From assembly GCF_900176035.1 (NCBI RefSeq), contig NZ_FWWT01000005.1, positions 62,001-126,000 on the forward strand: DNA of 64,000 nt. Direction: 5' to 3'. A program made the position numbers and the translations under genes. The DNA is from Desulfonispora thiosulfatigenes DSM 11270. GTDB taxonomy: Bacteria > Bacillota > Peptococcia > Peptococcales > Desulfonisporaceae. Shown piece after piece: positions 32,629 through 34,839 of the stretch (its first letter is position 1; every line of letters begins with the position of its first letter). The notes under the pieces are model-generated. The model did no database searches. It was given only the letters and a program-made list of their open reading frames with translations, and was not told the DNA's origin.

Positions 32629-33159
32629 TTACCAGCCTCTCGAATAGTCCTTAAAACAATCAAGACATACCATTTTGCCATCATTCATTCTCATTTTATA
32701 TTCAGGTGCCCCCTCACCACAATTTTCACAAGCAATAGTGGTAAATATTCTCGCCTTTTCAGGCAGACTAAAGGTTGGTTTGCTAAAACTAAAAATCTTA
32801 TCCACTGATGAATTTAATATGTATTCCTGGCGTTGCTTCCGATCCATTTCTTCCGTAGGATCCTTTACTATCATCCTGAGACTTTCACCATTACTCCTAT
32901 TAAAGAAACTAAAAGCCATTTTACCTGTTCCTTTATAAATAAGATTTCCTTTTCCAAACGTACATCCCGTAATTACCTGAATTGCATCTACTCCACAAGC
33001 ATCATTTTCCGTAACACAGACAACCTCCTCATCTTTAGAAAATGTAATATTCATTTTTTCCCTTGCTGCCTCACAAGCTTTAACACCCATTGCAAGTCCT
33101 GGACATTCATGACCATGAAATTCAACACATCTTTGCCATTCACTAACTAATTTACACAT
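32629..33159 (-). CDS. FmdE-family protein with zinc-ribbon tail
   Basis: About 176 residues. The FmdE core (PF02663) has FHGHECPGLAMGVKACEAA (about 13-31) and CVTENDACGVDAIQVITGCTFGKGNL (about 44-69), with conserved His and Cys residues that bind metal. The C-terminal part is a four-cysteine zinc ribbon, ACENCGEG ... MVCLDCFKDY. The name comes from subunit E of tungsten/molybdenum formylmethanofuran dehydrogenase, but isolated bacterial homologues have unproven roles. The ATG at 33159 has GAAAGGAG upstream; longer frames read through the leader. First gene of the transporter operon. Confidence 0.85.
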   Translation of the reverse strand: MCKLVSEWQRCVEFHGHECPGLAMGVKACEAAREKMNITFSKDEEVVCVTENDACGVDAIQVITGCTFGKGNLIYKGTGKMAFSFFNRSNGESLRMIVKDPTEEMDRKQRQEYILNSSVDKIFSFSKPTFSLPEKARIFTTIACENCGEGAPEYKMRMNDGKMVCLDCFKDYSRGW

Positions 33160-33203
33160 ATTTTTTTCTCCTTTCAATTTGAAACTTTTTTTAAAATAAA
33201 TGC

Positions 33204-33325
33204 AAAAAAACCACAAAAGTATCCTCCGTGTTCTCACAGATTCCTAACCTTCATGGTTTGCTTATATTTTTTAAACTTAATTTTTGGTTACTGAGTCTTC
33301 ATGACTCAAATTATCACATATTATA
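33204..33325 (-). promoter_or_regulatory. fmdE operon leader with hairpin element B and -10 box
   Basis: On the minus strand a TATAAT (33320-33325) is followed by a small hairpin TGAGTC/GACTCA (33292-33297, 33303-33308) and element B. In B, outer stem 33247-33259 pairs with 33208-33220 using G-U pairs, enclosing GGAAT, hairpin CTGTG-AGAA-CACGG and AGGAT, followed by seven T residues. B ends about 45 bases before the fmdE start, so it could be a conditional terminator. No good -35 box was found. The GGAATC...GGAG core faintly recalls the B12-box end of cobalamin riboswitches, but the rest of that aptamer is absent. Confidence 0.5.
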
Positions 33326-33502: not shown

Positions 33503-34579
33503 TTATTTTTTCATATTCTTTGATTTGATATAATTTCTAGCATTTTTTATTCCACCAAATCCAGAAAACATTTCATTTATCTTTTGTTTTTCAATTTGTC
33601 TTGAATTAAGGCCTTCGTATTTTGCTTCTTTTTTTAGTTTTTCATAACTTAGAAAGCGCTCTTCAGAGATTATACCTTCTTCAATGGCTTGTTTAACGGC
33701 ACACCGTGGTTCATTCTTATGTGTACAATTGCTGTATTTGCATTTATCTGCAAGTTCCTCAATATCCGTAAATGTTTTTGAAATATTTGCACTTTCAATT
33801 CCAATTTCCCGCATACCTGGAGTATCTATAACTGCACCACCTGATGAAATTATTATTAGATCACGTCTTGTTGTTGTATGTCTTCCCTTATCATCATCTC
33901 TAATATCTCCTGTTTCAATAACATCTTTACCAATTAGCCGATTTATCAAAGTAGATTTACCTACACCCGATGAACCAATGAAGGCAACTGTTATGCCACT
34001 TTTAATATATTTTAATACTGTTTCATATCCATCCTCAGTCATGCTTGTAGTAACAACTACATCAACTCCAACTGTAACAGTATTTACTTCTTCTAATTTT
34101 TTCGAAAGGGAACCACATAAGTCAGATTTTGTTAAAACTACTACAGGAACTGCACCACTATCCCAAGTAATAGCAATATAACGCTCTAGCCTTCGCAAAT
34201 TAAAGTCCTTGTTAAGCGACATACAAATAAAAACCATATCAATATTTGCTGCTACAAATTGCACGTCATTTTCATTTCCTGCTGCTTTCCTTGAAAATGC
34301 ACTTTTCCTATCTAATACTTGGTGAATAATGGCATTACCATTTTTATTATTATCTCTATCAATCATAACAAAATCACCTACAACAGGAAATTGTGACCTA
34401 CTTATAACTTCATGTCTAAATCTACCTGAGACCTCAGCTAGTAATTCACATTTCTCAGTTGCAACTTTATATAAATCTTTATATTGTGATATTACTCTCC
34501 CTAAGATAAGACCATTATAAAGATTAGCTTGCTGTATAAATCTATCAGAAAATCCTAAATTAATTAATCTATTATTCAT
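33503..34579 (-). CDS. rsgA: RsgA-type circularly permuted GTPase (ribosome biogenesis)
   Basis: 358 residues. N-terminal OB-fold (about 20-100), then a circularly permuted G domain: G4 TKSD (150-153), G1 GSSGVGKST (202-210), G3 DTPG (252-255), and a zinc site C280-x4-C285-x-H287-x5-C293. The basic C-terminal tail is extended. RsgA binds the 30S subunit, aids late maturation and is a target of (p)ppGpp. This copy diverges from the rsgA that usually sits beside a PP2C phosphatase/kinase pair and rpe in Firmicutes, so it may be a second paralogue. It has an unusual leader with a short coding region. Confidence 0.9.
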   Translation of the reverse strand: MNNRLINLGFSDRFIQQANLYNGLILGRVISQYKDLYKVATEKCELLAEVSGRFRHEVISRSQFPVVGDFVMIDRDNNKNGNAIIHQVLDRKSAFSRKAAGNENDVQFVAANIDMVFICMSLNKDFNLRRLERYIAITWDSGAVPVVVLTKSDLCGSLSKKLEEVNTVTVGVDVVVTTSMTEDGYETVLKYIKSGITVAFIGSSGVGKSTLINRLIGKDVIETGDIRDDDKGRHTTTRRDLIIISSGGAVIDTPGMREIGIESANISKTFTDIEELADKCKYSNCTHKNEPRCAVKQAIEEGIISEERFLSYEKLKKEAKYEGLNSRQIEKQKINEMFSGFGGIKNARNYIKSKNMKK

Positions 34580-34580
34580 A

Positions 34581-34648
34581 TATACTACCTCCTAAAATTG
34601 TATCTATCTTTTGGAGGTGTATACATTAATTATCTTGTATACACCTCC
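34581..34648 (-). promoter_or_regulatory. Competing RNA pairings around the rsgA ribosome binding site
   Basis: In transcript order: segment 1 GGAGGTGTATACA (34648-34636) lies in the last codons of the leader peptide; segment 2 TGTATACACCTCC (34625-34613) is its perfect 13-base complement; segment 3 GGAGGTAGTATA (34592-34581) contains the rsgA ribosome binding site and is complementary to segment 2 except for one bulged A. Thus segment 2 can pair either with the leader or with the rsgA site, the logic of a translational attenuator. Confidence 0.6.
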
Positions 34649-34686
34649 GTTTTTAATACAATCTCAGCATTATTATTTTTCTTCAT
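34630..34686 (-). CDS. Putative 18-residue leader peptide upstream of rsgA
   Basis: A short open frame (MKKNNNAEIVLKTEVYTR) starts with ATG at 34686, ten bases after AAGGAG (34697-34702). It ends in TAA within the loop of the hairpin that precedes rsgA. Its last seven codons form one arm of that hairpin, so a ribosome on the peptide would change the folding of the rsgA leader. A TATAAT box about 25 bases further upstream gives a plausible promoter. No protein family is expected at this size; translation is inferred from the ribosome binding site and position. Confidence 0.5.
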   Translation of the reverse strand: MKKNNNAEIVLKTEVYTR

Positions 34687-34839
34687 AAAACTTCAACTCC
34701 TTCTTAATAATTTAATTTAATTATACATTAAATATACCGTTTGACCCAAATATATGTTATATATGCTTTTTAAATATATGACCTTTTTCCAAAACAGCTT
34801 TAATTTTAACTGTATTTTTAGCCTACTTTTAGACAAAAA

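Follow-up and report, generated by a model that had tools for sequence, protein, structure and literature searches.

A putative erm-type translation attenuator in front of an accessory RsgA gene of Desulfonispora thiosulfatigenes, conserved across Bacillota

The leader RNA that precedes an RsgA-type GTPase gene of Desulfonispora thiosulfatigenes DSM 11270 is best read as an erm-type, ribosome-dependent translation attenuator controlling an accessory RsgA. We give this reading, which rests on sequence comparison and folding models, a probability of about 0.6. A ribosome stalled on or just before a conserved Glu-Ile-Val (EIV) motif of the leader peptide would correspond to the ON state, and run-through or termination to the OFF state. 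The device probably turns on the genes behind it upon ribosome stalling, for example under antibiotic. The window, i.e. the whole stretch of DNA that was analysed, comprises 64,000 nt (GCF_900176035.1, NZ_FWWT01000005.1, forward strand 62,001-126,000), and its relevant features are the following.

34697-34702, minus strand: Shine-Dalgarno sequence (SD) AAGGAG of the leader peptide, read from the sequence; an A/G-rich SD stands at the same place in aligned relatives.
34630-34686, minus strand: leader ORF MKKNNNAEIVLKTEVYTR, 18 codons plus TAA (stop at 34632-34630); the length changes of relatives are nearly all multiples of three.
34657-34665, minus strand: conserved E8-I9-V10 codons, segment 0 and proposed stall site; most relatives have the motif, at a fixed distance from segment 1.
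34636-34648, minus strand: segment 1, GGAGGTGTATACA, 5' arm of the 1:2 hairpin within the leader ORF, from pairing and covariation.
34609-34625, minus strand: segment 2, TGTATACACCTCC (34625-34613) plus AAAA, putative anti-Shine-Dalgarno and partner of segment 1 or 3; both pairings covary.
34580-34597, minus strand: segment 3, TTTTAGGAGGTAGTATAT, rsgA SD with its flanks, from the 2:3 helix and its covariation.
33503-34579, minus strand: accessory RsgA-type GTPase of 358 aa, the proposed regulated gene (PF03193, TIGR00157, separate clade).

The sequence-only reading had described a short frame with its own SD that ends in a hairpin loop, followed by segments able to pair in two mutually exclusive ways, and its coordinates and segments were correct. 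Helix 1:2 (34648-34636 with 34625-34613) consists of 13 perfect bp around a 10-nt loop, in which the leader stop codon sits in the window copy. At -19.4 kcal/mol it is stronger than helix 2:3 (-15.6 kcal/mol), formed by segment 2 plus AAAA with TTTTAGGAGGTAGTATA, the rsgA SD. The latter reaches up to 17 pairs; the single bulge that had been ascribed to it is right over a shorter stretch, while the full 17 pairs contain two single-base bulges. The folding of the 191-nt leader was 4.6 standard deviations better than that of dinucleotide shuffles, none of 200 being as good. Nevertheless, perfect arms of at least 13 were found in 12 of 400 random 160-nt stretches of the window, frequently enough that the hairpin alone is not decisive and conservation has to decide. 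A scan of the window copy found no terminator-like site between leader and rsgA, so that the intrinsic terminator of transcription attenuators was not seen there. As a promoter scan at the leader gave nothing better than shuffles, no promoter is claimed. No Rfam 15 match exceeded its gathering score anywhere in the window, and matches at the leader itself were at chance level.

The gene behind the leader belongs to the RsgA family, with matches to PF03193 (RsgA_GTPase, 8.5e-49, 166 bits in a profile search), to TIGR00157 (165 bits vs a cut-off of 100) and to solved RsgA structures. Together with the helix competition, this bears out the earlier suggestion of erm-like attenuation logic on an RsgA-type GTPase. 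That suggestion had also called the product a ribosome-assembly GTPase, which holds for the family, but sequence comparison places the window protein as an accessory paralogue and not as the housekeeping RsgA. A second RsgA encoded elsewhere in the same genome is 31% identical to it, and in a tree of 106 proteins a fully supported branch splits 17 canonical RsgA rows from 89 accessory rows. The leader was confined to the accessory clade (48 of 89), being present at none of 15 canonical loci. Within its own subclade of 14 proteins, the window RsgA is the sole member with a detected leader; the leader is thus dispensable in its 13 closest relatives. Downstream, about 270 bases past rsgA, lies a gene for an FmdE-type protein with a DksA/TraR-like zinc finger (window 32629-33237), after which come putative ABC transporter genes; nothing ties either to the leader.

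By-eye inspection of 49 loci with a related RsgA protein revealed the same leader in many of them, and a covariance model was built from the window leader and its relatives (R1, then R2). In its own genome the window leader matches the model at 1e-13, with no second copy. The model found the leader in 22 of 398 genomes sampled from the phylum of the window, in 29 of 391 genomes from the Clostridia-type class to which Anaerovirgula belongs and in 9 of 12 chosen named genomes, most of which had been picked because they had the leader. It is seen for instance in Pelosinus, Anaerovirgula, Alkalibacterium, Fontibacillus, Anaerovorax and Propionispora. Outside this phylum, leader and accessory rsgA were found together on plasmid p2 of Cetobacterium somerae (Fusobacteriota; L154, E 2.6e-8), which suggests their horizontal transfer. 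Judged by these searches, the leader device appears conserved across Bacillota, with one Fusobacteriota plasmid copy.

The genes behind 66 aligned leaders encode members of the accessory RsgA clade, RNHCP zinc-ribbon proteins (PF12647, 1.7e-40), GNAT acetyltransferases and one methyltransferase. At L143 the order is leader, RNHCP, rsgA, i.e. an RNHCP-rsgA operon. The methyltransferase, of class I SAM type, is found in Anaerovirgula multivorans behind a second leader of the family, MFKHIKNESV (L123, G432:C76). It matches generic families only, apart from a weak NpmA match that was distrusted. The GNAT protein has no NCBIfam name and in the PDB only a distant relative. The downstream genes thus gave no pointer to the inducer.

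Several loci carry related or different arrangements. In C. difficile (L031, L033, L034) a different short ORF, MMSELYIMVNNK, stands ahead of an RNHCP-rsgA operon with, by eye, a long hairpin and a T run; this upstream element probably controls the same two genes by transcription attenuation. A compact variant was observed before rsgA at L025, L026, L043 and L050, where a leader of 16-17 codons ending in PSEVNLR is accompanied by a short hairpin, CGGAGGTAAACCTCCG, beside the stop, with the rsgA SD about 10 nt beyond, so that the logic of SD, anti-SD and SD is the same and the geometry another. L145 (G596:C209) is a natural deletion that lacks segment 1, with EIV almost abutting segment 2, and the same genome has a second copy on contig C207. 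L109 (G123:C83:2154-2276) is the second leader copy of its genome, near-identical to L089 through segment 2 and unrelated beyond, and is perhaps a duplicate that a rearrangement or a mobile element has disrupted. Finally, in Listeria monocytogenes NZ_CP030101.1 (L156), filed as a plasmid yet chromosome-sized, an accessory RsgA of 41% identity follows an unrelated leader ORF, MAIVKMENLIINTGVFYL, with GGGGG, CTCCC and GGAGC segments.

Both helices covary. In the model-based alignment of 66 sequences, which was fitted to helix 1:2 and favours it, 82.6% of the cells of this helix are paired and 103 are doubly changed vs 39.5 +/- 6.5 in shuffles (0 of 500), with a covariation score of 0.313 vs 0.164 for shuffles and at most 0.165 for slid versions. 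Helix 2:3, which played no part in that fitting, shows 76.3% paired cells, 44 doubly changed vs 27.4 in shuffles and a score of 0.171 vs 0.129 (0 of 500). An alignment-free partner-swap test on 57 non-redundant sequences gave z -9.8 for 1:2 and -6.2 for 2:3, and still -6.7 and -4.0 when the SD/anti-SD core was left out. The shuffled-partner control gave t -9.7 (1:2) and -3.6 (2:3), the significance of shuffle controls being inflated by kinship among the sequences. RNAalifold on a MAFFT alignment returned just 6 pairs with little covariation, because segments 2 and 3 are out of register in that alignment. At the level of sequence and folding, 1:2 and 2:3 are mutually exclusive helices, the second burying the rsgA SD, as had been proposed from the window alone. 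A single-sequence fold also paired the EIV codons with the bases that follow segment 2, as an outer helix, which was discarded since its family support is weak (t -1.9 in type A, -0.6 in type B).

Two types of leader were distinguished. Type A, which includes the window and mostly precedes rsgA, has about 18 codons with the C-terminal consensus [ED]IVxx[RG]EVCTK and contains segment 1 within its ORF. Type B, mostly before GNAT and in some cases RNHCP genes, has 11 codons ending in EIVR, EIVA or EIVG, its stop lying just before CC-GGGAGG. The distance from start codon to segment 1 in type A is 37 in most copies; the rest are chiefly at 31, 34, 40 or 52, values congruent with it modulo 3. Distances of 35 and 36 reflect shifted GGAGG matching, and L130 alone is a true one-base exception. 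Since nearly every change in length is a multiple of three, the leader ORF appears to be kept as a translated frame. In this way both the short frame and the three segments proved conserved in related genomes, the former through in-frame length changes and the latter through covariation. The motif [ED][ILS][VA] immediately precedes segment 1 in most relatives, and its distance from that segment is constant in both types. The spacing stays fixed while the distance to the start codon varies (by five additional codons at L020), and it is unchanged in type B, where the stop has shifted to just ahead of segment 1. The E8 codon is GAG in 36 cases vs GAA in 1, and the I/L/S/N codons are mostly T-ending; with this codon bias, EIV may be conserved partly through RNA pairing rather than as a peptide.

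A fourth segment was overlooked in the sequence-only reading. In helix 0:1 the EIV codons and the following bases pair with the 3' half of segment 1, in a hairpin that encloses GGGA. It reaches -14.1 kcal/mol in type B vs -6.0 when shuffled, and about -12 to -20 kcal/mol in the strong copies (type B; L128, L129, L134, L143 and L146, among others, in type A). In the window it is weak (-3.2 kcal/mol). With 0:1 and 2:3 opposed to 1:2, many copies have the four-segment design of ermC.

Each leader (49 of type A, 16 of type B) was folded with a ribosome footprint at every codon and the accessibility of the downstream SD was read out, in a model of equilibrium folding that has an assumed footprint with three assumed front edges and no kinetics. 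In both types the SD stayed open until the P-site had reached codon 8-9 and was shut from codon 10-11. The type A median was about 0.5-0.65 at codons 2-8, fell at 9-10 and was 0 from 11; the window copy gave 0.56-0.98 through codon 8, 0.14 at codon 9 and 0.00 from codon 10. In type B, a ribosome immediately ahead of segment 1 gave an accessibility of about 0.55, and one at the termination position gave 0.01-0.08. The resulting step amounted to 0.46 in native leaders (74% above 0.3) vs -0.03 (2%) with the region from segment 1 to the SD shuffled. Its position at codons 8-11 makes the conserved codons the last place where a halted ribosome would leave the SD open. Hence the earlier claim that translation of the leader hides the SD is upheld for a ribosome past codon 9-10, which closes the SD in these foldings. 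The sign proposed with it, an untranslated leader being the open state, is not borne out, as leaders of both types are predicted to be opened instead by a ribosome on or just before EIV.

According to the mechanism that we propose, ribosomes in unstressed cells would cross segment 1 in type A leaders and terminate on it in type B leaders. With segment 1 occupied, segment 2 would pair with segment 3 and rsgA would be OFF. In the window, where 0:1 is weak and the naked SD is 64% open, the OFF state would depend on ribosomes sweeping segment 1. A ribosome that stalls at EIV or just ahead of it, a ribosome-targeting inhibitor being the most plausible cause, would cover segment 0 and leave segment 1 free, so that 1:2 would form, the SD would be exposed and rsgA would be ON. 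The additional RsgA would then serve as a stress or protection paralogue that acts on 30S subunits in cells stressed by the drug. A more tentative extension is that the E-I-V nascent chain, or its codons, represents a new antibiotic-sensing class, in which a stall under a particular inhibitor switches on ribosome-protection factors including the accessory RsgA as a 30S resistance GTPase, with HflXr as its large-subunit counterpart.

The sequence-only version, in which any fall in leader translation, blocked initiation included, keeps 1:2 and thereby rsgA ON with no specific stall, is retained as a rather unlikely rival. The ribosome-free SD is half open in most type A leaders (median 0.52; window 0.64) and in the window the 13-bp helix 1:2 outweighs 2:3, which would make the untranslated window leader ON. 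Type B on the other hand is shut without a ribosome (0.14) and opens only with one just upstream of segment 1; the proposal thus fails for type B and is not the best reading. Moreover, a motif that holds its spacing to segment 1, while the start codon does not, is better explained by a stall site than by initiation. A stall at the same codons could also be caused by starvation for Ile, Val or Glu, as conserved codons 8-10 sit at the switch boundary. Such amino-acid attenuation is improbable, since each codon occurs singly and is freely exchanged (I by L, S or N; E by D; V by A) and the downstream genes are not biosynthetic.

The perfect inverted repeat with its 10-bp spacer would in itself suit an operator or an RNA site for RsgA, in autoregulation, or for another protein. 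We regard this as very improbable because the same element precedes unrelated genes, the flank beyond the repeat (2:3) covaries and a translated frame is maintained. An RNA thermometer, with one helix opened by temperature, is the least credible of the explanations considered: what speaks for it is a chance-level Rfam match (16.8 bits vs a cut-off of 58), and against it stand the length of the helices (9-17 pairs), the conservation of a translated ORF and the placing of the motif by ribosome geometry.

The proposed attenuator shares with ermC-type attenuators a short, apparently translated leader with its own SD. As in ermC, 0:1 and 2:3 hairpins would make up the OFF state in the copies where 0:1 is strong, and a ribosome stalled over the first segment would allow pairing between the middle segments and so expose the gene's SD. 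It differs in that segment 1 of type A, the window included, lies within the leader ORF with the stop in the 1:2 loop, so that non-stalling ribosomes would open 1:2 themselves; in addition 0:1 is weak in the window, and the targets are RsgA, RNHCP and GNAT instead of Erm. To our knowledge, [ED]IV matches no erm arrest motif.

Control of an accessory ribosome GTPase by a leader ORF has been described for HflXr (Listeria lmo0762, leader rli80; PMC6310831). As is proposed here, a short leader ORF and alternative folds of the RNA control an accessory paralogue of a housekeeping ribosome GTPase; in HflXr, however, attenuation acts on transcription through a terminator, and the leader has an RLR macrolide motif (PMC6310831). 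Between the present leader and rsgA no terminator-like site was found. Furthermore, HflX acts on 50S/70S and RsgA on 30S. Leader-ORF control of ribosome-acting factors in Bacillota is also known from the ABC-F genes CplR, VmlR and VgaL (PMC10201436) and from uORFC-6-1 upstream of hflX (PMC8632094), and CplR includes SD hiding, that is translation attenuation, as one layer (PMC10201436). These ORFs nevertheless either encode tiny peptides (MRI, MIN) or are believed to affect transcription (PMC10201436, PMC8632094), and no sequence relation of the rsgA leader to the CplR, VmlR, VgaL or uORFC-6-1 leaders was found. Of the two RsgA paralogues of Streptomyces coelicolor, SCO6149 and SCO5211, one is a member of the WblC regulon, which antibiotics induce (PMC7157823). 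There too a second RsgA, a possible orthologue of the Bacillota accessory RsgA, is induced by a translation-targeting antibiotic along with GNATs and methyltransferases, but through a transcription factor (WblC/WhiB7) and not a leader RNA (PMC7157823).

While erm-type attenuation is a known class of mechanism, the leader family, the placement of EIV, the stop-in-loop geometry and the targets appear new. A search of an open literature library retrieved no paper joining rsgA with a leader peptide or translation attenuation. That one stall-responsive leader is common to accessory rsgA, acetyltransferase, zinc-ribbon and methyltransferase genes suggests that they form a shared response, and these mixed targets, together with the parallel to the WblC regulon of Streptomyces coelicolor, hint at a response to ribosome inhibition. 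A second RsgA is carried by many Bacillota and we found no role assigned to it. If it is protective, it would be a resistance paralogue of the 30S assembly GTPase, a class for which no leader-controlled precedent was found, and the leader would provide a ready-made reporter for finding the inhibitor.
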